Of a DNA stretch of 27,304 bases, positions 9,078 through 27,304 are shown piece after piece. The translations under genes and the position numbers were made by a program. The notes under the pieces are model-generated. The model was not told the origin of the DNA, searched no databases, and worked only from the letters and a program-made list of their open reading frames with translations. Source of the stretch: a virus; the IMG/VR virus record IMGVR_UViG_3300037427_001308, positions 1-27,304 of that record, one strand, 5' to 3'. Position 1 is the stretch's first letter. The number at the start of each line of letters is the position of its first letter.

Positions 9078-9833
9078 ATGGCACAATTAGGCAAGGTAAG
9101 ATCTGTTTCTAAGATAAAGTCTGAGCTGTTAAGACCAGCTACTACTTCTGTTTTTGAAGTAGAAGTTCCTGTACCCAATAGTAATGCAGGTCTAAAAACT
9201 AATGATAGATTGAATCTGATGTGTTCAGAGGCATCTCTTCCTGGTTCATCACTTGCTACGATGGAAATCAATAATGATTTTCCAGGAGTTACTGAGAGAT
9301 ATGCTCATAGAAAGATTTTTGATGATAGATTAGATTTAACTTTTTATGTTGACGCAAAAGAATATGGTGCTATTAGATTTTTTGAAACATGGATGAAGTC
9401 TGTTGTTAATGAAGATACTAACGATGCAAAGTCTAAGTCATATCATTATGAATTAAATTATCCAGATTCATATATTGCAGACCAAGGATTGAAGGTTAGA
9501 AAATTTGAGAAGGATAGAAGACAACTTTTAGAATATGAATTTTTTAGAGCATATCCTATACAGATAACTTCAATGCCTGTGTCTTATGAGGCATCATCTT
9601 TATTGAAGTGTACAGTATCAATGACATATTTAAGGTACTTGATTACTGATGTGGTTACTGATAACACTCCTCCACGTTTTGATCCTTTATCACAGGCAAG
9701 TAGAAATAGTTTCTTTGCTTCTTTAGTTGGTAGATTAGTTGATGCAGGTGTTGATGCAGTTACTGGTAATGATTTGTTGGGTGATATTGCAGGTGGAATT
9801 GCTTCTGGAATGATTCAAAGTGCTCAAGAATAG
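9078..9833 (+). CDS. 54: gp54, baseplate tail tube initiator
   Basis: A 251-residue protein of the tail-tube/gp54 type. T4 gp54 (320) polymerises on gp48 and starts tube assembly. Segments pointing to this fold are LMCSEASLPGSSLATMEINN, then FPGVTERYAHRKIFDDRLDL and TFYVDAKEYGAIRFFETWM. A beta-rich middle region (RAYPIQITSMPVSYEASSLL) follows. The C-terminus is a hydrophobic, glycine-rich helix (GNDLLGDIAGGIASGMIQSA). In T4 gp48 and gp54 are adjacent and co-oriented, but here they lie on opposite strands with divergent starts. A tail tube paralogue other than gp54 is the main alternative. It has no clear ribosome binding site. Confidence 0.72.
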   Translation: MAQLGKVRSVSKIKSELLRPATTSVFEVEVPVPNSNAGLKTNDRLNLMCSEASLPGSSLATMEINNDFPGVTERYAHRKIFDDRLDLTFYVDAKEYGAIRFFETWMKSVVNEDTNDAKSKSYHYELNYPDSYIADQGLKVRKFEKDRRQLLEYEFFRAYPIQITSMPVSYEASSLLKCTVSMTYLRYLITDVVTDNTPPRFDPLSQASRNSFFASLVGRLVDAGVDAVTGNDLLGDIAGGIASGMIQSAQE

Positions 9834-9870: not shown

Positions 9871-10590
9871 ATGCCTTTACCAAAAATTGCTACTCCGACT
9901 TATGAGTTAGAGTTACCTTCTACTGGAGCTGCAGTTACTTATAGACCTTTTCTTGTTAAGGAAGAGAAGGTGTTGGTGATTGCTTTGGAGAGTGAAGATA
10001 ATAAACAGATCACAAATGCTATTAAAGCAGTTCTTAAGAGTTGTGTTCTTACGAAAGGAATTAAAGTAGAAAAACTTCCTACTTTTGATATTGAATATCT
10101 TTTTCTTAACATCAGAGGTAAGTCTGTAGGAGAAGAGTTGGATGTTAATGTTATATGTCCTGATGATGAAAAGACTACCGTACAGGTTAGTATTAATTTA
10201 GATGATATACAAGTTGAAAAGAATGAGGAACATGATAATAAAATTAAGTTAGATGATAACTTAATGATGGAGTTGAGGTATCCATCTCTTGATCAGTTTA
10301 TTAAAAATAACTTTGAGTTTGATGAAAAGAATGCAATGGCACAATCATTTGAATTGATTGCTACTTGTATTGATAAAATTTATACTGAAGATGAGGTATG
10401 GGCATCTGCTGATTGTACTAAGAAAGAGTTAAATGAATTCCTTGAGTCAATGAATTCCAGTCAGTTTAAAGGTATTGAAACTTTCTTTGAAACAATGCCT
10501 AAATTATCTCATACTATTACAGTTAAGAATCCTAATACCAAGGTTGAAAGTGAAGTTGTACTTGAGGGATTAGCATCTTTTTTCGGCTAG
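9871..10590 (+). CDS. 26: gp26, baseplate hub subunit / assembly chaperone
   Basis: A 239-residue protein of the T4 gp26 baseplate family (T4: 208). The start PTYELELPSTGAAVTYRPFL and VKEEKVLVIALESED are typical, and the middle carries the FDIEYLFLNIRGKSVGEE element. In T4 it acts in hub assembly. Its place just before gp51 and the tape-measure genes matches tail assembly chaperones of other tailed phages. Near its end, TCT-TTT-TTC-GGC-TAG holds a TTTTTTC run from which a -1 shift would continue straight into gp51 (see findings). An AGGA site four bases before the ATG supports the start. Confidence 0.85.
   Translation: MPLPKIATPTYELELPSTGAAVTYRPFLVKEEKVLVIALESEDNKQITNAIKAVLKSCVLTKGIKVEKLPTFDIEYLFLNIRGKSVGEELDVNVICPDDEKTTVQVSINLDDIQVEKNEEHDNKIKLDDNLMMELRYPSLDQFIKNNFEFDEKNAMAQSFELIATCIDKIYTEDEVWASADCTKKELNEFLESMNSSQFKGIETFFETMPKLSHTITVKNPNTKVESEVVLEGLASFFG
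10578..10584 (+). promoter_or_regulatory. candidate -1 frameshift heptamer T-TTT-TTC
   Basis: In the gp26 frame the bases read T TTT TTC, the X-XXY-YYZ form of a -1 slippery site, two codons before the gp26 stop. After a -1 shift the next codons are CGG CTA GGG ATG, which is the gp51 frame with no stop between. The fusion would be about 300 residues. A weak stem (CTC/GAG at 10597-10606, with one extra G-C pair outside a mismatch) begins about 10-12 bases downstream. Confidence 0.45.
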
Positions 10591-10592
10591 GG

Positions 10593-10772
10593 ATGTCTCA
10601 TATGAGTCTGGAGAATTACTTCAGACTTAATTTTGCCCTCCTTCAATACCATAAATATAGCTTGACAGAGATTGAGAATATGATGCCTTGGGAACGAGAC
10701 ATCTATGTGGGACTTCTTCAACAACATCTTGAAGAGGAAAAACTAAAGCAACAGCAACAATCGAATGCCTAG
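10593..10772 (+). CDS. 51: gp51-like hub assembly protein (59 aa)
   Basis: A 59-residue helical protein (MSHMSLENYFRLNFALLQYH, then KYSLTEIENMMPWERDIYVG and LLQQHLEEEKLKQQQQ). The RLNFALLQYHKYSLTEIENM and PWERDIYV pattern is what cyanophage annotations call gp51 or baseplate hub assembly. It is far shorter than the T4 gp51 I recall (about 249), so strict equivalence is uncertain. It also looks like the short T part of G/GT tail assembly chaperones: helical, with a W-x-R turn, directly before the tape measure. It starts two bases after the gp26 stop and overlaps the next gene by eight bases. It may be made both alone (ATG 10593 or 10602) and as a -1 frameshift extension of gp26. Confidence 0.75.
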   Translation: MSHMSLENYFRLNFALLQYHKYSLTEIENMMPWERDIYVGLLQQHLEEEKLKQQQQSNA

Positions 10773-13647
10773 TAACAATAAAAATATAATAGGTAAATTA
10801 AGGCAAAGGTATGAGCCTCATATGCAGCTGTCTGCTAAAGTTGATTTAAATCATCAAATAATACATGAGGTTGAGAAGAAGTTAACAGATTTACCAAAGA
10901 TACATTCTACATTAAGTAAGTCTTTTGGATTACAAAAGAAAACTTTACGTCGAGTGATTGGATTGGAGTCTTTGCAATCTTCACTCCTCTTTCGAGTGAT
11001 TGGATTGGAGGAAGTAGTTACTGGAGATGCACGGAAGAAATTACAGGGTGAGAAACCAAAGAAGAAACCAAAGTTAATTAAAAGGAAATTTAGACCAGTA
11101 GGTGATGGTCCAGATTCTAATGATAGAGGTGGAAGTTATACTGATGGTGCTCGACAGAAAGTTAATATTAAAGATGATTGGGGTGATGTTGATGATGGTT
11201 GGAGTGGTACTTCAGGTAGAGATGGTGCTGATGGATTAGGTGCTGATGGATTAGGAGGTGCCGATGGTCTTGGTGGTGCCGATGGTCTTGGTGGTGCTGA
11301 TGGATTAGGTGGTGCTGATGGATTAGGTGGTGCTGATGGTCTTGGTACTGCTGGTACTGCTGGTACTGATGGTGCTGCTGCTGGTACTGCTGGTAGACCT
11401 GTTCAGATGTTAGATGGTCCTGGTGCTTTTGATAGAGATAGAGGATTCAGAAAGACGAGGATTAGGGCAGAAGATTTAAAGAGAGGTAGTTCTCAAGAAA
11501 CTATTGAGGATAGAATAGAGAGACTTGAAAGAAATGAAGAAGAATCAAAGGAAGCTGAGAAACATTCAGGAAGTATAGAACATATAGAAACTACAACTGG
11601 TGTTGATGCAGAGACTGGAGAACCATTAAGTGCTGAAGAAAGGAAGAGAAGATTTAGAATAAAAACTGGTAAGATTAAGGCAGAAGATATAAAGAGAGGA
11701 ACTGCTGTAGAAGGAGCAGAGGGAGCAGCAAAAGTTGCTGCTGATACTACAGGTGCAAGTGCTCTTGCTATTCGTAAAGGAAAACCAGATGTAACTGGTT
11801 CAGATCTTGTACCACCAGACGAAGAGGGTGAGCAAGTTGAAGGTGATAAACCAGAAAAGAATATTCTTAGTGGACTTGGTAAACATGTTTCAAAGATTGC
11901 TGATACAGTAGATTCTATCTACGAGACTTTACAAAGCCAGTTTAATGAGCAGAAGGATACTAAAGAAGATGCTCGTGTACAGAAAGAACAGAAAGATGCT
12001 GAGAAACAAGAAAAGAATTTAGAGAAAGGTGGTCTTGGTAAAGGTATAAAGGATACAGCAAAAAAAGTATTCAAACCTTTCATGAGTATTTGGGATAAGT
12101 TTGTTAATTTTCTAACAACTATCTTGGTTGGAAAGGTTGTGATGAAAATTTTAGATTGGTTTGGTAACCCTGAAAATGCAGACAGAGCGAAGTCATTAGT
12201 TAGATTCCTTAAAGATTGGTGGCCTGTTTTATTAGCGAGTGTCATGGCATTCATGCCAGCTTTGTTAGGAACAGGAGGGATGATTATAGGAACGGTTATA
12301 TTATTAGCTTGGGCTATTCCTAAGATTATTGATGCTGTTAAATGGGTGATGAACGTCCCCAATATGATAGGAAACTTTCTCAAAGGTGGTGCTAAAGATA
12401 CTGATAAGTTAGAGAAAGATTCTTTAAAGGAATTGGAATCTGAAACGAAAGGTCTTGACCCTACTGGTGGAGGGGAAGGAGGACAGGATCCTTTAGACCA
12501 AGCAAAGACAGAAGGTGGAGGAGAAACACCACCTCTGGAATTTGATAAGCAATCAGATTTACAGAAGGTTGAACCTGTTAAGATGAATGAAGGTGGATCA
12601 GTTCCAGGAAAAGGTGATAAAGATACCGTCCCTGCGATGCTTACTCCTGGTGAGTTTGTTATGTCGAAGGATGCTGTAGAAAAGTATGGTAGTAATACTT
12701 TAGCAGGTATGAATGCTGCTGCTGGTGGTACAAATGTTCCAACATTAGGTGCTGATGGTGGGGATGGGAAGAAGAATAAGAAGCAACCAAACTATATGAT
12801 TCCTCATTTTAGTGGTGGAGGAAAGGGTAAAGCTATTGATAAGTCTCATTATGGAACTTCAGGATATAGAATAGGTCAGATAATGCCAGATCAATATATT
12901 TATTCTAAAGATTCGTTCTACCATAAGATGGTAACTAAGGGTGATGAAGTAGTAGAGAATACAAAAAGTTTTACTTCAATTGGTGGTGCTATTGGAAAGC
13001 CTGATATGATAGAACACCAGAAGCAACTTGTTGGAGAGATACAAAAGGAAGATGGTTATGAGAATGTTAATATTATTGATGTTATGGAACGTGTGAATGG
13101 TAGAGGAAGACTTGTAGGTATGCCCGATGAAGTTCTTTATCCTATTCTTAATGCCAGTGATGCATATAAAGCAACTCAGTCAAAAATGAATGCAGCACAT
13201 AAGATTGATTTAGAATCAAGAGGATTTGGTGATGGTAGTAAGGGTTATTCAATGATGTATAATGGTGGTGGTTTAGTTCAACATTTAAATCAAGGTGGGT
13301 TAGTTCAGAACTTTAATGAAGGTGGTATGGTTCAGAATATGTTTGGTGGTGCTAAGAATGCCTTTAATATGCTTCCTCAAGTTAGAGCAGCAAAATGGTT
13401 GGGTAATAAAGCAAAGAATATCTTTAGTAAAGGAAAGGAATTTATTGGTAATGCCTTAGATAAATCTGCTAATATTCCTCCTCCCTCTACTGGGAATAAA
13501 GTAAAGATTCTTCCTCTTCCTGCACCAGGAGGTCCATCTACTTCAGAGGATACTACAGCTCCTCCAGGAACTACTATACCAACCTTTAGTGTGGTTCATC
13601 CTGGTAATAAGAGTTCAAAACAAAAGACATTGGGGATAACGAATTAA
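10765..13647 (+). CDS. large tape-measure-like tail protein 1 (960 aa)
   Basis: A 960-residue protein with tape-measure character, in the place where T4-like phages carry hub/tail-length genes (gp29 in T4). In order: a basic helical N-terminus with the repeat RVIGLE (two copies); a Gly/Ala/Asp tract (154-208); paired elements IRAEDLKRGS (233-242) and IKAEDIKRGT (304-313); and charged coiled coil (about 385-430). Next come MSIWDKFVNFLTTILVG (440-456) and a hydrophobic stretch (485-519). Then a GG-x-VPG-x-G-x2-DTVPAMLTPGEFVM-like motif (610-642), common in tape measures. Three nine-residue repeats beginning GG(L/M)VQ follow at 835-861. It may set tail length and help DNA passage. It overlaps gp51 by eight bases. 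Equivalence to gp29 is inferred, not shown. Confidence 0.7.
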   Translation: MPSNNKNIIGKLRQRYEPHMQLSAKVDLNHQIIHEVEKKLTDLPKIHSTLSKSFGLQKKTLRRVIGLESLQSSLLFRVIGLEEVVTGDARKKLQGEKPKKKPKLIKRKFRPVGDGPDSNDRGGSYTDGARQKVNIKDDWGDVDDGWSGTSGRDGADGLGADGLGGADGLGGADGLGGADGLGGADGLGGADGLGTAGTAGTDGAAAGTAGRPVQMLDGPGAFDRDRGFRKTRIRAEDLKRGSSQETIEDRIERLERNEEESKEAEKHSGSIEHIETTTGVDAETGEPLSAEERKRRFRIKTGKIKAEDIKRGTAVEGAEGAAKVAADTTGASALAIRKGKPDVTGSDLVPPDEEGEQVEGDKPEKNILSGLGKHVSKIADTVDSIYETLQSQFNEQKDTKEDARVQKEQKDAEKQEKNLEKGGLGKGIKDTAKKVFKPFMSIWDKFVNFLTTILVGKVVMKILDWFGNPENADRAKSLVRFLKDWWPVLLASVMAFMPALLGTGGMIIGTVILLAWAIPKIIDAVKWVMNVPNMIGNFLKGGAKDTDKLEKDSLKELESETKGLDPTGGGEGGQDPLDQAKTEGGGETPPLEFDKQSDLQKVEPVKMNEGGSVPGKGDKDTVPAMLTPGEFVMSKDAVEKYGSNTLAGMNAAAGGTNVPTLGADGGDGKKNKKQPNYMIPHFSGGGKGKAIDKSHYGTSGYRIGQIMPDQYIYSKDSFYHKMVTKGDEVVENTKSFTSIGGAIGKPDMIEHQKQLVGEIQKEDGYENVNIIDVMERVNGRGRLVGMPDEVLYPILNASDAYKATQSKMNAAHKIDLESRGFGDGSKGYSMMYNGGGLVQHLNQGGLVQNFNEGGMVQNMFGGAKNAFNMLPQVRAAKWLGNKAKNIFSKGKEFIGNALDKSANIPPPSTGNKVKILPLPAPGGPSTSEDTTAPPGTTIPTFSVVHPGNKSSKQKTLGITN
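10950..11010 (+). repeat. 19-base direct repeat inside the tape-measure gene
   Basis: TCGAGTGATTGGATTGGAG occurs exactly at 10950-10968 and again at 10992-11010, 42 bases (14 codons) apart. It encodes RVIGLE twice in frame. Exact identity at the DNA level suggests a recent duplication or conversion inside the gene. Confidence 0.85.
11224..11343 (+). repeat. tandem repeat encoding GADGL / GGADGL
   Basis: Two 15-base units (GADGL; 11224-11238 and 11239-11253) are followed by five 18-base units (GGADGL; 11254-11343), all in frame. Units come in two codon spellings, GAT-GGT-CTT and GAT-GGA-TTA, in paired blocks, as expected for stepwise unit duplication. Nine-base GTA repeats follow (from 11344). 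The tract is probably a flexible glycine-rich linker whose length can vary between relatives. Confidence 0.9.
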
Positions 13648-13648
13648 T

Positions 13649-15991
13649 ATGGCTTGGGCAGCATTAGGAAAAAAATTAGCAACTGGAATGGTTAAAGGTA
13701 AGGCAAAGAAGATTGCCACCGATAAGTTATTGAATCGAAAGAAAAAGAAAGAAGCTAAAAGACCATCCTTAGATGAACTTATTGCAGATGTGAGAGGTGG
13801 TGGAGCAGAACCATCAAAAGGTGGAGAACTTATGGTGCGTCCTACCACTTCTTTAGTTCCTAATCCTACAGGTGGTATTCAAAAACATACTGGCAATGAA
13901 GGTGAGTATGGTAGTATAGAAGATAATCTTATTAGAATTAAATCTAAAACTATATCTATTGATCAAGTATTAAAGGGTACTCTTGCTGCACAGAAGGCAA
14001 GGAAGGCAGACCAAAGGAAAGTAGCAGAGCAAGCAGATGCATCAGGAGCAGAATCAAAACTTGAAGGTAAGGGTAAGAAAAAGAAAGGACCAAACTTAAA
14101 AAGGTTTATACCTAAACCCATGATGAGTGCATGGGAAAAGTTAAAGAACTTTTTTACTACTATTGTTTTTGGTTATGTTGCTATACAATTACTACCTTTA
14201 CTTCCTGCATTACTTAAATTTGTTAAGGGGTTAGCTGCTTTTGTTGGATGGATTACTGATATTGGGTTGGGATTATTAACTGGTCTTACAAGTCTTATTG
14301 ATTGGGGATATAAACTTTATGATATGGGAATGGGATTGATAAAGAATCTTGTAGGTGAAGAGGGTGCAGAAAAGTTAGGGCAATTTATGGGAGTGATTAA
14401 GGATCTCTTTACGGGATTCTTAGTATGGAAAATTATCGGACAGAAAATATTTGAAGCAGTAACTAAGAGTATAACAAGAGCATTTAGAATTGCCAGAGTA
14501 ATAGTTAAGAGAGCAATTAAATTTGCTAAGAACTTTATTAAGAATGCAGTTAATTTTGCAAAGAATATAGCATCAAGGGTTGGTAAAAATTTGATGAATA
14601 TACCAGGAGTTAAGAATGTAGTTGGGAAAGTTGCTCAAGTAGGAGGTAATATACTTAAGACAGGTGCTAACATTCTTAATAAAGGTAAAGGATTGCTTAG
14701 TAATGTAGCAAGTAAAGGAGGGGGTGTTGCTAGTAAAGTAGCAAGTAAAGCAGCAGGTAAAGTTGGTGGAATAGCAGCGAAGATATTTGGTAAGGCAGCT
14801 AAGTTTATTGCTCCTGCTATTAAAACTGCAATGCCAGCAGTAAAAGGATTCCTTGGAAAGATTCCTATAATGGGACCTCTTATTGTAGGTATTGTTTCTT
14901 TAATATCAGGAGATCCTCCAGGTAAGGCTATCTTTAAGGCACTTGGTGCAGCATTAGGTGGAGCACTTGGAACCTTTATACCTATTCCTGTTCTTGGTAC
15001 ACTGATTGGTGAAACAATTGGTGTGTTTGTGGGTGAGTTATTATATTATCTGATTATAAAAAGAGATCCTAAAGCAGCATTTCAGTTCCTGAAAGATAGC
15101 TTCATGAAGATCTTTAATGTAGGAAAAAATATATTCCTATTCTTTAAGGATGGGTTTGGTAGGTTTATTAATACATTCCCAATGGTTAAGTTCCCTGCGA
15201 CGAGCATTGGGACAATGGTGGCTGATTTCTTAAGTATTAATCCCATCTATAAAAAATTATTAGAATGGGAAGTTCCTGATTGGAAAGTTATACCTAAAGC
15301 AATTAGAGGATTTTCTTTAGGTGGAATGTTAGATACTCTTCCTACTATACCAGAGATATTAGGAAAGATATTTAGTTTACATCCTTTGTTGAAAATGTTA
15401 GTTAAGGATGGAAAGGTAGAAGGTTTTCCTGCAGTTTGGCAGTTAATGAATCCTGTCTTTATGATTAAGCATCTGAAGGAATCATTCTTCCCATCTAAAG
15501 GAGGTGCAGGTTCTCCAAAAGTAACTGCAGTTACAGGTGGAGGAGGAAAGGTAGGTGGTGGGAAAAAAGAAGACAAAGAAGCAGCACAGTTAGAGAAGGA
15601 AAAGAAGATGGCAGAAATGAAAGAAAAGATTGGTGATGTAGCAGGTAAAGTTGGTGGGTTCTTTAAAAATATTGGTAAAGGTATTAAGAATATAGGTGGT
15701 AAGATTATAGAGAAACATCCTGCAGTAATGGCAGTGAAGGCTGCTAAGAATGCTATATCTCCTCCATGTAAGTGTGACCTTACACCAATAGATGTGAATG
15801 CTGTTTCTAAAAAGACAGATGATATTAGTACCTTTGCATCATATGAAGAAGGTGCAGAGGAAGAGATTGTTATTCCAATTCCATCTGCATCTGATGGATC
15901 CTCTGGAAATAAAGTGACCGATAGTAATCTGATACTTGTTGCTGCCAGTGGCGGTGCAGATTCTACTTTTGATTCTTTATACATCCGTTAA
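13649..15991 (+). CDS. large tape-measure-like tail protein 2 (780 aa)
   Basis: A 780-residue protein, one base after the previous gene. The N-terminal 150 residues are strongly basic (RKKKKEAKR and GKGKKKKG). At 158-175 MMSAWEKLKNFFTTIVFG aligns with MSIWDKFVNFLTTILVG of the preceding protein, so the two are probably paralogues. The middle is a long amphipathic region rich in Lys, Ala and Gly (about 270-400). It leads to a very hydrophobic segment (about 405-470, with GPLIVGIVSLISGDPPGKAI and GALGTFIPIPVLGTLIGETI). The C-terminus is acidic and less hydrophobic, with a CKC pair. Hydrophobic tape measures can enter the host membrane on injection. It is probably the gp29-type tape measure or its partner. 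A GTTAAATA box overlaps its stop. Confidence 0.68.
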   Translation: MAWAALGKKLATGMVKGKAKKIATDKLLNRKKKKEAKRPSLDELIADVRGGGAEPSKGGELMVRPTTSLVPNPTGGIQKHTGNEGEYGSIEDNLIRIKSKTISIDQVLKGTLAAQKARKADQRKVAEQADASGAESKLEGKGKKKKGPNLKRFIPKPMMSAWEKLKNFFTTIVFGYVAIQLLPLLPALLKFVKGLAAFVGWITDIGLGLLTGLTSLIDWGYKLYDMGMGLIKNLVGEEGAEKLGQFMGVIKDLFTGFLVWKIIGQKIFEAVTKSITRAFRIARVIVKRAIKFAKNFIKNAVNFAKNIASRVGKNLMNIPGVKNVVGKVAQVGGNILKTGANILNKGKGLLSNVASKGGGVASKVASKAAGKVGGIAAKIFGKAAKFIAPAIKTAMPAVKGFLGKIPIMGPLIVGIVSLISGDPPGKAIFKALGAALGGALGTFIPIPVLGTLIGETIGVFVGELLYYLIIKRDPKAAFQFLKDSFMKIFNVGKNIFLFFKDGFGRFINTFPMVKFPATSIGTMVADFLSINPIYKKLLEWEVPDWKVIPKAIRGFSLGGMLDTLPTIPEILGKIFSLHPLLKMLVKDGKVEGFPAVWQLMNPVFMIKHLKESFFPSKGGAGSPKVTAVTGGGGKVGGGKKEDKEAAQLEKEKKMAEMKEKIGDVAGKVGGFFKNIGKGIKNIGGKIIEKHPAVMAVKAAKNAISPPCKCDLTPIDVNAVSKKTDDISTFASYEEGAEEEIVIPIPSASDGSSGNKVTDSNLILVAASGGADSTFDSLYIR

Positions 15992-20491: not shown

Positions 20492-23400
20492 ATGGCAGCA
20501 CAACAACAACCTACCTTTAATATTTTTGATTCTCCTACGAAAGAGGGGATAGATGTTGGATATATTTCTAGTGATAGAGGATATGTACAAAATGTTAATC
20601 TTTGTGAAGCCAATGAGTATGCTAAGGCAAATCCAGGAACAGTATTTATTGTTAAGAATAGGGATGTTGTAAAGTATCTTGGAATTAATTCACTCAATAC
20701 ATTAAATCCACAAGACCTTATTCCTGAAGGAGCTAATGAGTGTGCAGGTTATGAAGATTCGAGTATTGATGATGGTGATAACACTACAACCCTAACTGAT
20801 AAATCTTTTCTTCCTCCAACTGGTATAGAAATATTTCATAATCCAGGTAGTTGTAAATCAAGAGTAGCTTTTTATGGTGGTGGAGGAGTAGGTGTCCATG
20901 CAAATGCTATCATTGGTAATGATGGTGGAGTTCTGGCTGTTGATGTTGTTCGTGGTGGATTTGGATATAAGTATCCTCCACAGGTAGATGTTAAGGATAC
21001 TTGTAAGCAGGGTGTTGGGGTTGTAGCAAAGGCATATATTGATGAGGAATTAGAAGTTCTTCATTATTATGATGAAGATTTGGAAGTAGAAGAACCTGAA
21101 CTATGTGCTGATGATATTGCAGGGTTTGGTAGAAGATATAATGCTGCAGGAAAGGATGTAGGAGCGTGGGATCCTTCAGTATATAAGAGAGAATCAGAAA
21201 AAACTGATTATCAAAGAGCAGTTGAAGAATATAATAGGTTAGTTGCAGAATATACAAGACCTTGGAAGACTGTTAGGGATATAAAGGGTGCGGAGAGTCC
21301 TGTACAATTAAAACATATTATATGGACTAGTGGGGGTGGAACAACTAAAGAACAGTATGATGTTAAATGGACAGGTTATACTGCACCAGACAGTCTTTTA
21401 GTAGAAGATACTTTCCTTGTCTATACCGAGGGTGGAGGAGGACAGGGTAGGGTTACAGGAACAGGTTTACAATATACATTTACTTCAGCAACTGGATCAC
21501 ATAAGTTCTCTATAAAAGCAGAATCTTTTGTAAATAGGGCAGCAGCACAACCAGTAAAGATTAAGGTTAAACCTAATACAGTTTATAATGTAGCATCAAG
21601 TGGTAACTATGAAGGTATTAATAAAACTGAGCAAGGACTTCTTAAAGAATCTACTTTTGGAAAGAGGGGAACCGAACAAGATACAGGGACAGGTAAAACA
21701 ATTTTTGCAGACTTGATAGGTTCTGCAGATGATGATGATGACTTACAAATTAAAACTACATTAGGAAAGTTTATAGCAGGAAGTCCAATAGCTACAGGAA
21801 GGGGTCATGATAGTTGGGCAATAACTTATAAGTTAGAGGATTCTTCTGTTAATAATGCAAATGGAGGGTCTGGATCTGATACAGATAATTCAGAAGAGTA
21901 TTTGGGTGATGGATGGGGTGCGTTTATGAATAAGAATGCAATATCTCCTGTTCCTCCATCAGCTGTACCAGGTAGTGATCATGCTGGCGAAACTTTTATT
22001 TGTGAATGGGATGCAGATTTTCCTACTGATGGTGAGTATACCTTTAGAGGAGCATTTGATGGTGATGCAAATTATGGAGATTTTTATGTAGATAATGAGA
22101 AGATAGGTGAATTTAGCCGCTATGATGTAAAACCCATCAGTGTTATTCATAAAATTTATCAAAGAGGATTGCATACACTGAGGTTTGATTTAAAAAATAA
22201 TGCAATCATGAAACCCGTAGCTATTCAACCTACCATTTCAGATAACAATGTTAAGTTTGATGGTATGTTTGTAAAAGAAGGTAGTAATTATTTTTATTAT
22301 ATTGAAAAGGCAAATGATTTAGTAAGTATAGATTTTGAATTTCAGTGGGCAGAAACACAAGATAAAAAGATGACAGTAACTAAAGTTACTTTAGATACTG
22401 AAGATGAACCATTAGTATTTGATATACCTAAGTTGGAGGCTGAACCACCCGCATCTCTGCCTAATATTTCTATGTTAGCTCCTTGGGTAAAGAGTTACCA
22501 AGGTCAGGGTTTTACTAATTGGGTTAATAATTCTAACGTTGAATTTCTAAGAGCTTATGCTGTTTTTCCAGTTACTGATAATTCATTGAATGGTATAAAA
22601 CAAACAGGTAGATGGACTATTGATATTTCAACTCCAGGAACTTATACTCTTGAATTATCGTCAGATGATACTTCATCAGTTAGTTGGGATGGAAATTTTG
22701 TAGGTGATACTACTTGGGATGAATCACAATCTGGTCCAAAAGTATTTACTATTAATGATGTAACTGTAGGTAAGCATGAATTGAAAGGAGAGGTTACAAA
22801 TAATCCTGCCTATGGTAAATCTTGGTATAGGAATCCAGGAGGAATTGGATGGGTACTGAAGAATTCTGCAGGTCAGATAGTAAGAACCTCATTAGATGAT
22901 TTTAATACTGAATTACCTCAAGGATTTAGAGCAATTAGTTTTGATGTACAGAGACAATCTTATGATACTAATAAGATTATCTTTGAAGGGATGAATTTCA
23001 CTGCTACTGGTGATATACCAAATGATACAACTAGTAAACAGAATACTGTAGTTGAAGAAGGTGTTGCTTATAAACTATCTTATTTTGGTAGTGGTAGACG
23101 TACTTGTTTCTTTAAAGTGGAGTATGGTGGATTAGCGATTGGTCTTGATGATGATGGTGGTTCACGTACACCAAATCCTATTAGTGGTGACTTTAAAAAT
23201 AGTGGAGTATATGTAGGAGCAAATCTTCTTGTTACTGCATCTGAAGGAGAGTTCTATGAGCAAGATGGATCTTTCTATTACAAGGTAAGGAAGAGTAATC
23301 TTCAAGAGGATTTGGGTAAAGAAGGAAGTGGATATGAACCACAAGGAAACATTTTAAAGACAGGAACCTTTAAGGATGGTAAGAAATATCGTTTAGTTTT

Positions 23401-26400
23401 TGAGCAAGAACCTATAGGTCATCCAAGTCCTGAAATTAGAGACACTAGTATCTTTAATAATCAAAGTAGAATAGGTGACAATCATGACGATCAAATTTTA
23501 AATTTCCGTCCAGTGGTAGATAAGAATGAGGATGGTGGATACATCCTTGTACCTGATCCCAATGCATTGTTGGCAGCAAGAAATGCTAAACAACTATCTC
23601 CACCTAAGAAAGTATCTGCATATCCAGAACATATTGTGGCAGCAAGTATAGAGAAGAGGAGTGTTTTTAATACTATAGATTATATTGATAAAGCTAATAG
23701 ACCTTTATGGAAATTTCCTGCGACTGGAGGATTCTTAGGTAAATATGGTGTTGTACCTTTTGATACTGGTGTAACCTACGGAGGTAGTGGTAGTGTCCCA
23801 GATAGTGGAACAACAAATAAGAAATTCTCGAAAAAGTTTTGGGTCTTAGAGTACAGGTCAGCAAAAGGCACACATACCAAATACTATCGGAAGGAGCTGA
23901 TAGACTTAGAAACTGATGATAGATTTAAACATAATTACATAACATGGAATGATGATGGTAGCTTATTTGCAGTTCAGGATTTAAATGTAGTCCTAACTAG
24001 ACCTGGGGTAACACAAAATGTCAAAAGGGGTTCAGGTAATTATGGTCCTGGAACTTCTGGAGATTGGAAAGGACTAAGTGGTAATAGAAGAGGAGTCTTT
24101 CGTGAGAAGGCTTACAAGAGATTTGATAGAGAAAGTTATGCGATTTATGGTCGATATACTAAATCCAATCCAAGTATGTGGTTTAGATTGGAACAAGCAA
24201 CGCTAGCTGAGCTTAGTGGTACTACTACGGTTACTAATGATCCAGTAATATCTGGAGGTGCACAGGCTGGAACTCATACTATTGTATGGAGTAATGTAAC
24301 CTTCCCTGTAACTGCCAACTATAAAATTGAAATAAAAGTTGATGATAATGTAAGGTTGACGATTGGTGATCAAGTAAACATTTATAAGGAGGGCTTTACT
24401 TATGGACAACAGGCAACCACTTATGATAGTTTTGGATCTGCAGTTTCAGCAGTTAATGAAGGACAGTTTGGAGCGACAGGGAAGAGTACTTATACAGAAT
24501 TTATAAAGAGAGGAACTTATACAATCACAGCTGATTTAGAACAGATTCCTGGAGGTGTATTGGGATGGGATGCTGGTAAAAACTCTATGGTTCTTGGAGT
24601 TAATATTGAAACCGAAGTTGCATCAGCAGAGGTAATAGATGAATCTAAATCTTGGAATGAGAATCCAATGGGTGTTGCTATAAGTATTGACTCTCCTCTT
24701 CCTTTACCTCCTGTGTTTGCACTTCCTCCTATGGATGGTGAGTGTCCACCTAATCCTATTTGGCATACAAGATATCCTAATGCTAAAAATAAATGGAGTC
24801 CAGTCATAGGGTTCCCTTTCTGGAGTAAGTTCATGAACATGTATCCTCTTTCTCCTCTTCCTCCATTAGATGAACCTGGAACTGATGGAACAGGAGTTGT
24901 GTATACAAATGAATGGACAGTTGATTTACCTTATGATGGTGAATATGGTCTTAGAGGAGCAGTAGATAACTGGGGAAGAATATTAATAGATGGTATACCA
25001 TATCAGAGATATACTAATGAAGAATTATCATCCATAGATCCTTCAGGAATTGATAATCATACACTTGGAGATCCTGTTCAGAAAAAAGTACCATTAGCAC
25101 GAATTGGATTAACTAAAGGGGAACATACTATAACTGTTGAGGTAGAGAACTGGAAAAACTATGAGATACCAAGAACCTTTATTGATGAAAAGATTTTTAG
25201 TACACAAGATTGGCAGGTTCCTATACCAAAGAAAAAACAGTATGCTGATGTAGATTTTGATGTTAGTATTAAAACTTTATTGGGTGCTGGTATTGAAATT
25301 AAAGGATTGTTTGAACGTTCAAAAGATTATGGTGCTGATGGTATTGGACCTCCACCACCACCTGTGACATCAGAGGATACCTTCCGTGTTTATTGGCATG
25401 GTGTACCTGGTATGGAATTTAAATTTACTTCACCAGATGGATCGCATGAGTTTACATTTAAGGCAAGGGATTATCGAGAAGTAACACCAACTACTGAAGC
25501 ACCGATTCATGTTATACCTAATGTAGATTATACTGTCGTAGGAAGTTATAATGCAGATATTTTCTTAGGTGGAGATACAGGTAACGATGCTGTTGAGCAA
25601 GGACTTATCCCTGATAATCAATTTGGAACCAGACGACCAAAAGAAAAAGACACGGGAACAGGTAAAGCTATTTTTGTAGATTTATTGAGATCATCAAATG
25701 ATAACGATGATATGCAAGTTGAAGCTCAGTCGGGACGTTTTACAGCAGGTGCGGAGATTCCAATAGACGTTTCTGGTGATAGTTTCCACTTAACTTATAG
25801 GTTATCGGTTCCTGTTGAAGAGACCATACCTGCAACGAGTGACAGGTATAGAAATTTACATGATAAATTTACAAAGAGAGTTGAGAAAGGACGTGTTTAT
25901 GATGTAATTATTAACAGTGAGGGTAAATGGAGATTGACAGGTGAAAGAGCTGTTAATTCATCTACTATTACTTACATTGGATTAAACTCTTGGGATGGGA
26001 TTACTGTAACTAATAATGCAAAAAGACTTGCCTTTAAAGATGGTGGTGGTAATGATACTAATGGTTGGTTTGATATTGATAGTGTTACAGGAGGAACGGC
26101 AAAGTTTAATTCAGATGGTAAGTCTTTTGCTATTACAGGAAAAGATGTTAAGATTAAGCTTACCTATGGTTGGAATGACAGAACAGACATTGATGGTAAG
26201 GCATTAGATCAAATTAAAATTGGAAAAACAACATGGACTCAAACCAATAGCAAGAAAGGATCAGAAACTCATACTGTTACTTTAAGTTCAGGGTATCCTT
26301 TGGGTGGTGATGGTAGTAAACATTTCCAATTAAGAACTAAGGGTGATAATGTCATCGAGATGGAAGACCTTTGGGGTTGGGAAGGTGTTGGTGGTGGTGC

Positions 26401-27304
26401 TGATCTTGGTCCTTGGTTTGATGATGTTGTATGTGCTACCAGTGAAGGAAAGTTTTATGACATTCAAGGGAACACTGCTAAGTATGCTATTGGTGCTGAT
26501 GTTGAGACGACGGTGGTTAGGGATGGAGTTGAATATGTAGGTCCAAAATTATATAATTATCAACATGCTGCTTACGGTAAGTTTCTTAATAAGAAAGGTG
26601 TTTCTCCAGACTATCCAAAGATAGGTGGAGTGCATGAGGTAATCAATTATACATGGAGTAATGTTGATTTTGATGCGGATGGAGAATATGAATTCCATTT
26701 TGTGAATGATGCTCATGGTTCTCTTTATTTGGATGGAAAAGAACTAATTAGAGGTGCTTTTGATGATAAGGCTGGAGTTTCTGCTTTTGATCGTTTAAAT
26801 TTTACTATAGGACAGAGGAAAATCGTTTCTGTTACTAAAGGAAAGCATACAATAGCAGTTGCTCCTACAGGAAGATTGGGACAAAAAGATATATGGACTG
26901 ATGGTTTGTTTAGAAAACTTTCATCAGATTATTATAAGGGACAGCAAGCATGGGAGAATAATCCTTCTGCAATGGCAGTTAATATTACTCGAAAGGTTGA
27001 AACTTTTCCTCAAGAAGGAAGTGCTGAAGCAGCTGAGTTGAACCTTGGACCTGACTATTTCAGAAACAGGAAAGGTAAATCATGGGTTGAAAATCCTTTA
27101 GCAATTTCTGCTGCTTTAATACCCGCACCTTGTAAACAAGATGCTAAGGGTAAAGGAGTAGTAACAAGAGTGGAAATTATTGATCCTGGATGTAGTTTCC
27201 CACCTCCAGGTACTCCTACTGGAATTGGAACGTATCCAGTCATTTTAACTTGTCCAAGGATTACTGTTGTTGATCCTGGTATTAACTATAATCCAGGTTC
27301 TGGT
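20492..27304 (+). CDS. giant modular virion structural protein (at least 2271 aa, 3' end outside window)
   Basis: An uninterrupted frame runs from ATG 20492 to the last base (2271 codons; each line was read through with no stop). The start lies nine bases after gp5 and has a weak AAGGA at 20474-20478. The protein is beta-rich and low in Lys/Arg clusters, with many Gly, Asp, Thr and Tyr, as in tail fibre or baseplate appendage proteins. Visible modules: a G-x2-Y-x2-PP repeat (about 128-175); a 144-residue block (305-448) repeated at 1628-1771; and PA14-like beta-sandwich units (about 478-570, 700-790, 1258-1350, 1447-1555, 2031-2126). There is a proline linker near 1620 and a further DPG-x2-(Y/F) region at the edge. 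I know no specific T4 equivalent. Host-surface or glycan binding is a reasonable guess from the PA14-like fold only. Confidence 0.9.
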   Translation, partial: MAAQQQPTFNIFDSPTKEGIDVGYISSDRGYVQNVNLCEANEYAKANPGTVFIVKNRDVVKYLGINSLNTLNPQDLIPEGANECAGYEDSSIDDGDNTTTLTDKSFLPPTGIEIFHNPGSCKSRVAFYGGGGVGVHANAIIGNDGGVLAVDVVRGGFGYKYPPQVDVKDTCKQGVGVVAKAYIDEELEVLHYYDEDLEVEEPELCADDIAGFGRRYNAAGKDVGAWDPSVYKRESEKTDYQRAVEEYNRLVAEYTRPWKTVRDIKGAESPVQLKHIIWTSGGGTTKEQYDVKWTGYTAPDSLLVEDTFLVYTEGGGGQGRVTGTGLQYTFTSATGSHKFSIKAESFVNRAAAQPVKIKVKPNTVYNVASSGNYEGINKTEQGLLKESTFGKRGTEQDTGTGKTIFADLIGSADDDDDLQIKTTLGKFIAGSPIATGRGHDSWAITYKLEDSSVNNANGGSGSDTDNSEEYLGDGWGAFMNKNAISPVPPSAVPGSDHAGETFICEWDADFPTDGEYTFRGAFDGDANYGDFYVDNEKIGEFSRYDVKPISVIHKIYQRGLHTLRFDLKNNAIMKPVAIQPTISDNNVKFDGMFVKEGSNYFYYIEKANDLVSIDFEFQWAETQDKKMTVTKVTLDTEDEPLVFDIPKLEAEPPASLPNISMLAPWVKSYQGQGFTNWVNNSNVEFLRAYAVFPVTDNSLNGIKQTGRWTIDISTPGTYTLELSSDDTSSVSWDGNFVGDTTWDESQSGPKVFTINDVTVGKHELKGEVTNNPAYGKSWYRNPGGIGWVLKNSAGQIVRTSLDDFNTELPQGFRAISFDVQRQSYDTNKIIFEGMNFTATGDIPNDTTSKQNTVVEEGVAYKLSYFGSGRRTCFFKVEYGGLAIGLDDDGGSRTPNPISGDFKNSGVYVGANLLVTASEGEFYEQDGSFYYKVRKSNLQEDLGKEGSGYEPQGNILKTGTFKDGKKYRLVFEQEPIGHPSPEIRDTSIFNNQSRIGDNHDDQILNFRPVVDKNEDGGYILVPDPNALLAARNAKQLSPPKKVSAYPEHIVAASIEKRSVFNTIDYIDKANRPLWKFPATGGFLGKYGVVPFDTGVTYGGSGSVPDSGTTNKKFSKKFWVLEYRSAKGTHTKYYRKELIDLETDDRFKHNYITWNDDGSLFAVQDLNVVLTRPGVTQNVKRGSGNYGPGTSGDWKGLSGNRRGVFREKAYKRFDRESYAIYGRYTKSNPSMWFRLEQATLAELSGTTTVTNDPVISGGAQAGTHTIVWSNVTFPVTANYKIEIKVDDNVRLTIGDQVNIYKEGFTYGQQATTYDSFGSAVSAVNEGQFGATGKSTYTEFIKRGTYTITADLEQIPGGVLGWDAGKNSMVLGVNIETEVASAEVIDESKSWNENPMGVAISIDSPLPLPPVFALPPMDGECPPNPIWHTRYPNAKNKWSPVIGFPFWSKFMNMYPLSPLPPLDEPGTDGTGVVYTNEWTVDLPYDGEYGLRGAVDNWGRILIDGIPYQRYTNEELSSIDPSGIDNHTLGDPVQKKVPLARIGLTKGEHTITVEVENWKNYEIPRTFIDEKIFSTQDWQVPIPKKKQYADVDFDVSIKTLLGAGIEIKGLFERSKDYGADGIGPPPPPVTSEDTFRVYWHGVPGMEFKFTSPDGSHEFTFKARDYREVTPTTEAPIHVIPNVDYTVVGSYNADIFLGGDTGNDAVEQGLIPDNQFGTRRPKEKDTGTGKAIFVDLLRSSNDNDDMQVEAQSGRFTAGAEIPIDVSGDSFHLTYRLSVPVEETIPATSDRYRNLHDKFTKRVEKGRVYDVIINSEGKWRLTGERAVNSSTITYIGLNSWDGITVTNNAKRLAFKDGGGNDTNGWFDIDSVTGGTAKFNSDGKSFAITGKDVKIKLTYGWNDRTDIDGKALDQIKIGKTTWTQTNSKKGSETHTVTLSSGYPLGGDGSKHFQLRTKGDNVIEMEDLWGWEGVGGGADLGPWFDDVVCATSEGKFYDIQGNTAKYAIGADVETTVVRDGVEYVGPKLYNYQHAAYGKFLNKKGVSPDYPKIGGVHEVINYTWSNVDFDADGEYEFHFVNDAHGSLYLDGKELIRGAFDDKAGVSAFDRLNFTIGQRKIVSVTKGKHTIAVAPTGRLGQKDIWTDGLFRKLSSDYYKGQQAWENNPSAMAVNITRKVETFPQEGSAEAAELNLGPDYFRNRKGKSWVENPLAISAALIPAPCKQDAKGKGVVTRVEIIDPGCSFPPPGTPTGIGTYPVILTCPRITVVDPGINYNPGSG
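21404..21835 (+). repeat. duplicated protein block, copy 1 (residues 305-448 of giant protein)
   Basis: This begins EDTF and ends AITYKL, with TFTSATGSHKFSIKAE, TEQGLLKESTFG and DTGTGKTIFADL (397-408) inside. The last 52 residues align without gaps with copy 2, with 25 identical by hand count. The DNA has diverged, so the duplication is old. Confidence 0.85.
21923..22200 (+). repeat. PA14-like module with FMN-SP leader, copy 1
   Basis: Residues 478-570 of the giant protein: FMNKNAISPVPP, then EWDADFPTDGEYTFRGAFDG, a DFYVDNEKI strand and RGLHTLRFDLKN. The order W...DGEY.(F)RGA.D...(Y)(V)D...G.HT matches the other copies and resembles PA14-type beta sandwiches. Confidence 0.7.
24830..25153 (+). 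repeat. PA14-like module with FMN-SP leader, copy 2
   Basis: Residues 1447-1554: FMNMYPLSPLPP, EWTVDLPYDGEYGLRGAVDN, RILIDGIPY and KGEHTITVEVENW. It parallels copy 1 (478-570) and copy 3 (2031-2126) in the same motif order. Confidence 0.7.
25373..25804 (+). repeat. duplicated protein block, copy 2 (residues 1628-1771 of giant protein)
   Basis: This begins EDTF and ends HLTYRL, with KFTSPDGSHEFTFKA, VEQGLIPDNQFG and DTGTGKAIFVDL (1720-1731). It has the same length (144) as copy 1 and the same offset to the DTGTGK motif, with compensating gaps in the first half. It follows a Pro-rich linker. Confidence 0.85.
26582..26869 (+). repeat. PA14-like module with FMN-SP leader, copy 3
   Basis: Residues 2031-2126: FLNKKGVSPDYP, YTWSNVDFDADGEYEFHFVN, SLYLDGKEL and KGKHTIAVAP. 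This is the most PA14-like copy (DGEY...LYLDG...KGKHTI). A W-x3-NP-x-A element follows at 2154, as after other copies. Confidence 0.7.

Follow-up and report, generated by a model that had tools for sequence, protein, structure and literature searches.

How does this T4-like ocean virus of cyanobacteria translate gp51, a small reading frame that follows gp26 in the -1 frame: as a gene in its own right or as the end of a longer, frameshifted protein? The DNA analysed here, called the window, covers positions 1-27,304 (27,304 nucleotides) of the IMG/VR record IMGVR_UViG_3300037427_001308. A -1 frameshift at the tail-assembly chaperone genes is a familiar feature of other tailed phages, and Xu, Hendrix and Duda reportedly found in 2004 that it is conserved in long-tailed phages (lambda G/GT tail assembly chaperones). 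Comparison with related junctions makes it highly probable (roughly 94%) that a programmed -1 frameshift at T TTT TTC likewise makes a minority gp26-gp51 fusion beside a majority of gp26. The genes concerned are:

9078-9833, + strand: tail tube protein, directly upstream of gp26 (phrog_45, 6.1e-35; PF23849, 1.9e-16)
9871-10590, + strand: gp26, the zero-frame product and short tail-assembly chaperone TAC-N (PF12322 T4_baseplate, 4.1e-76; phrog_150, 4.8e-81)
10593-10772, + strand: gp51, in the -1 frame relative to gp26 (phrog_634)
10765-13647, + strand: long tape-measure-like ORF (phrog_35029; weak matches to tape-measure PHROGs, 3e-6 and 2.6e-5)
13649-15991, + strand: second long ORF after gp51

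The gp26 of the window also has matches in T4, to gp26 and to the N-terminal portion of gp51. The ORF at 10765-13647 overlaps the end of gp51. An earlier note on this DNA had placed gp26 and gp51 just before the tape measure; the downstream ORF is only tape-measure-like, on weak PHROG matches. Where a single tape measure gene would be expected, positions 10765-15991 carry two long ORFs in succession, of 960 and 780 aa, which have weak tape-measure, lysis and membrane-segment matches; 11215-11390, within the first of them, encodes a run of near-identical GADGLG repeats that is low-complexity and collagen-like. At the far end of the window, one ORF (20492-27304), 2271 codons long or longer, runs past the last position.

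The junction itself has the following parts:

10578-10584, + strand: slippery heptamer T TTT TTC, in X XXY YYZ phase
10588-10590, + strand: gp26 stop codon TAG, one codon after the heptamer
10584-10772, + strand: open -1 frame extension (R-L-G plus gp51), the TAC-C domain (phrog_634, 3.4e-28)

The 3' end of gp26 reads TTA GCA TCT TTT TTC GGC TAG. A reading-frame check bears out what the earlier note had seen here: a heptamer in the correct frame two codons before the gp26 stop, a gp51 of 59 residues in the -1 frame, and a fusion of about 300 residues without a stop. The shifted reading, S-F-F-R-L-G-M-S-H-M..., meets no stop codon and joins residues 1-238 of gp26 to 62 further residues, giving exactly 300 aa. 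The C-terminus of phrog_150 matches the extension (4.1e-5), which aligns continuously with T4 gp51. A TTTTTTC in itself says little: the window contains 12 copies where chance predicts 11.6, and the argument must therefore rest on conservation.

Conservation was assessed in two steps. A first IMG/VR set comprised 125 distinct junctions, the window included, with gp26 proteins 59-100% identical in amino acids to that of the window; all 125 carry TTTTTTC, closely followed by the gp26 stop, and have gp51 in the -1 frame. Addition of a second clade, seeded with ACG-2014j, brought the number of distinct cyanophage-group junctions, taken from viral contigs, to 187; heptamer and frame are present in 187 of 187 (one reaches the contig end before gp51 is complete). 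The same holds for 12 of 12 named cyanophage isolates, mostly from different Kyanoviridae genera. The position of the gp26 stop is identical in 128 of 128 sequences. Codon choice is constrained as well: the last Phe codon is TTC in 106 of 106 equal-length sequences, compared with 27% TTC at the other Phe codons of gp26, and the two Phe codons are always preceded by T, even though the residue to which this T belongs varies (Ser as TCT or AGT, Gly, Ala, Asp). In all cyanophage relatives the aligned junctions thus retain the heptamer, with gp51 in the -1 frame throughout and no stop codon between the heptamer and gp51; a missing heptamer, another gp51 frame or a gp51 apart from gp26, which the earlier note would have counted against frameshifting, were not seen among cyanophages.

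Outside the cyanophages, TTTTTTC followed by a -1 extension is found in six T4-like phages of non-cyanobacterial hosts, namely Citrobacter phage Ci1, Stenotrophomonas phage Marzo, Aeromonas phage P19 and the Vibrio phages EniLVp02, VH7D and D479. A separate pattern is seen in Ackermannviridae, where gp26 homologues have a -1 gp51-like domain and a conserved end, GA(A/G) ATT TTC AT(T/C) TAA, with no standard heptamer (loci L166:3205-3245, L165:3268-3308, and L257-L262 and L267-L273 near 2270-2304). Vibrio phage D506 (L161:3140-3170) has a -1 gp51-like extension after TCA CTT TTC AAG TAA, also without a standard heptamer.

The invariant heptamer and frame bear on the simplest alternative, in which gp51 is translated from its own start by termination-reinitiation at TAG GG ATG and the heptamer is incidental. 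The ATG of the window (10593) sits two bases past the gp26 stop, so separate translation of gp51 is possible there; an ATG occupies this codon in 82 of 128 relatives, and GenBank records annotate two genes where a start is present. Yet independent initiation leaves unexplained why TTTTTTC is invariant and why every relative has gp51 in the -1 frame, and the ATG of the window lacks a Shine-Dalgarno sequence at the proper distance. Moreover, 32 of 199 heptamer-bearing junctions have no ATG, GTG or TTG in the first 14 codons of the extension, and the amino-acid sequence there is nevertheless conserved (RIALFHNTLEGYYKTNF...). In these relatives no way other than frameshifting is evident by which the N-terminal part of the extension could be made. 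We regard independent initiation as very unlikely to explain the junction. Existing annotation is uneven: gp51 is called truncated in the records of P-SSM7, Syn19, S-RIM2 and Sf-CH3 and is absent from those of ACG-2014j, ACG-2014d, S-CAM1 and Aeromonas P19. In ACG-2014j, ACG-2014d and S-CAM1, the un-annotated coding stretches lie at L170:3215-3392, L284:1515-1701 and L287:1515-1698 and were probably passed over because the early ATG is missing.

A T run could also fuse the two frames during transcription, by slippage of the polymerase that adds or removes bases in the mRNA. A run of six T does exist, but it is exactly six in 128 of 128 sequences, preceded by A, C or G, and falls below the 9-base runs cited for bacterial slippage (PMC5009743). 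In addition, the C that ends the run, its codon phase, the GAGGG upstream and the RNA structure downstream all suit ribosomal shifting, and slippage of the polymerase is the least probable of the explanations considered here.

The upstream element is

10564-10568, + strand: Shine-Dalgarno-like GAGGG, candidate 5' stimulator, 9 nt upstream of the heptamer

and its spacing falls inside the 9-14 nt range given for upstream Shine-Dalgarno sequences that stimulate -1 shifts (PMC5009743). In relatives, GAGGG or GAAGGG (encoding Glu-Gly) precedes the heptamer. GAG is used at the motif site in 91 of 128 sequences compared with 33.5% elsewhere in gp26, and where GAA is used, GGG comes next in 29 of 37 cases compared with 9.9% of Gly codons elsewhere, both counts treating the sequences as unrelated. 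The motif is weaker in the ACG-2014j clade. Shine-Dalgarno complementarity shows no excess over column shuffles (4.42 vs. 4.43); as this shuffle keeps the columns, the comparison with codon usage is the informative one.

Downstream of the heptamer, RNA folding was compared with a control in which codons were exchanged among sequences sharing a residue at a given column, so that each protein and the composition of each column stay unchanged. The mean folding energy of 36-nt windows, with positions counted from the heptamer, peaks sharply at +13 to +48 (-7.86 vs. -4.96 kcal/mol in the protein-preserving shuffles, z -17.8) and departs from the control far less elsewhere. The excess is repeated in the independent ACG-2014j clade (z -14.0 at +4 to +39). 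These z values assume independent sequences and overstate significance; the location of the peak and its replication in a second clade make chance unlikely. In the window, the candidate structure is

10603-10629, + strand: 11-bp RNA hairpin UGAGUCUGGAG-AAUUA-CUUCAGACUUA, candidate 3' stimulator (fold of -16.9 kcal/mol, z -2.2)

It begins 18 nt after the heptamer, a spacer farther than usual, which weakens its reading as a stimulator.

The stems differ by lineage: a CATATG palindrome, the 11-bp hairpin of the window and, in most members of the ACG-2014j clade, a 12-bp hairpin. RNAalifold found no single consensus hairpin across the main clade. The CATATG palindrome (GGTCC-ATAT-GGACC and variants) was considered as the sole fold and rejected, being only one of several registers; it covaries modestly beyond protein-preserving shuffles at 85% redundancy but does not do so in the 15 most divergent sequences. 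Within the ACG-2014j clade, one subclade has moved the helix by three bases through the synonymous changes GCA to GCC, TTC to TTT, TTG to CTA and GAA to GAG. Strict column counting yields no compensatory pairs in this clade, a consequence of the three-base change of register from one subclade to another. Selection thus appears to keep some stem downstream of the heptamer and not one given stem.

A different purpose for this structure has to be weighed, one that would touch the stimulator and leave the frameshift itself in place: the fold may hide the gp51 start or serve mRNA processing or decay. The hairpins span the gp51 ATG and the second ATG (HM), and the 18-nt spacer of the window would agree with such a purpose. 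However, the clade that lacks an early gp51 start, and so has no start to hide, shows a structure of equal or greater strength, and we consider this explanation of the fold unlikely, though less so than the two alternatives to frameshifting discussed above. We lean towards the view that a cassette of Shine-Dalgarno-like motif, TTTTTTC and stem-loop is kept while its stem is repeatedly rebuilt from other registers by synonymous changes within conserved coding sequence. Selection would then act on the ratio of short to long chaperone and on no particular fold, and many lineages would have lost a separately startable gp51.

T4 provides a natural control. Its gp51 is a single ORF of 249 residues that matches phrog_150 from 13 to 280, equivalent to the whole predicted fusion, whereas T4 gp26 matches phrog_150 only from 14 to 235 and corresponds to the short form. 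When the predicted fusions are aligned with T4 gp51, the similarity crosses the junction (FF-R-L in the fusions, VF-K-L in T4), so homology to a single-ORF fusion runs through the predicted joint as frameshifting would require. That T4 gp51 comes fused to a gp26-like domain is a further point against a gp51 with its own start. T4 genes 26 and 51 lie on opposite strands, and gp26 of T4 and PG7 lacks the heptamer. T4 thus seems to encode as two genes what its relatives make by frameshifting.

Within the programmed frameshift that we favor, the ribosome would slip by -1 at 10578-10584, with peptidyl-tRNA(Phe) on TTT and tRNA(Phe) on TTC re-pairing one base back on TTT TTT. The majority product would be gp26, TAC-N (239 aa), and the minority product the fusion, TAC-NC (300 aa). 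The upstream GAGGG, bound by 16S rRNA, and the downstream stem-loop probably slow the ribosome and raise efficiency. In the T4 subgroup, both chaperone forms would come from the separate genes 26 and 51. Heptamer, frame, lack of a gp51 start in many relatives, homology to T4 gp51 and selection on RNA structure are established by comparison at the level of sequence, from which we infer that slippage occurs, and its rate.

The arrangement resembles lambda G/GT in that two adjacent ORFs are flanked by the tail tube gene and a tape-measure-like gene, the second ORF being in the -1 frame, with a short and a predicted fused product. It differs in that gp26 belongs to its own sequence family (PF12322) and in the conserved upstream Shine-Dalgarno-like motif and downstream RNA structure. 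The lambda heptamer is GGGAAAG, unlike the TTTTTTC found here. The E. coli dnaX cassette shares the order of upstream Shine-Dalgarno sequence, heptamer and downstream stem-loop, but uses A_AAA_AAG and yields a shorter shifted product; in the phages studied here the shift would lengthen the product, and the stem varies by lineage. As for function, PMC3004832 lists gp26 and gp51 of T4 among the chaperones of hub assembly. An AlphaFold2 model of gp26 (pLDDT 85.7) retrieves the HK97 tail-assembly chaperone 2OB9 at PDB ranks 2 and 5 with non-significant E-values of 0.8-1.1, and PDB sequence searches gave no matches. Given this fold link and the weak tape-measure matches downstream, it is from architecture and literature that we infer a lambda-like role, in which the short and long forms would act on the tape measure protein as gpG and gpGT do.

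The earlier note knew of no such frameshift in T4-like cyanophages. The 2022 abstract of Vladimirov et al. is said to describe frameshifting as conserved in several T4-like groups. A 2016 review had called the G-T frameshift widely conserved "except T4" (PMC5009743). PMC10885494, citing Vladimirov, Gautam and Davidson 2022 (Virology 566:9-15), states that some T4-like phages have a short gene and a fused longer gene, and PMC12846349 credits poly-T -1 signals in T4-like TAC-N genes to the same work. According to these citing papers, the frameshift was thus reported for some T4-like phages in 2022, so that the claim of a mechanism undescribed in T4-like phages is probably wrong, and the cyanophage frameshift is probably not new and may already be listed there. 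PMC12846349 also describes a conserved -1 shift in TAC-N with an invariant poly-T motif, GTTTTT, in Vandenendeviridae/Andersonviridae (phage Adele); families and motif differ from those here, and the passages on this shift mention no test of an RNA stimulator. Our literature search found no paper describing the frameshift for cyanophages by name and none on a stimulatory structure or its turnover; novelty may lie in the stimulatory cassette and in how it turns over.

Compared with T4, the cyanophages belong to the same protein family, in which T4 gp51 combines a short-like domain with the gp51 C-domain, but T4 uses separate, divergently oriented genes without a heptamer where cyanophages would frameshift. 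The comparison thereby marks which T4 relatives use the lambda-type mechanism and which swapped to a second gene, and it provides hundreds of natural variants of one frameshift cassette. If gp51 is the end of a frameshifted chaperone, this would account for its uneven annotation in viruses that are among the most abundant in the ocean, where it figures as a very small gene of its own, as a truncated gene or not at all, and the chaperone ratio tied to tail length would become testable in cyanophages.
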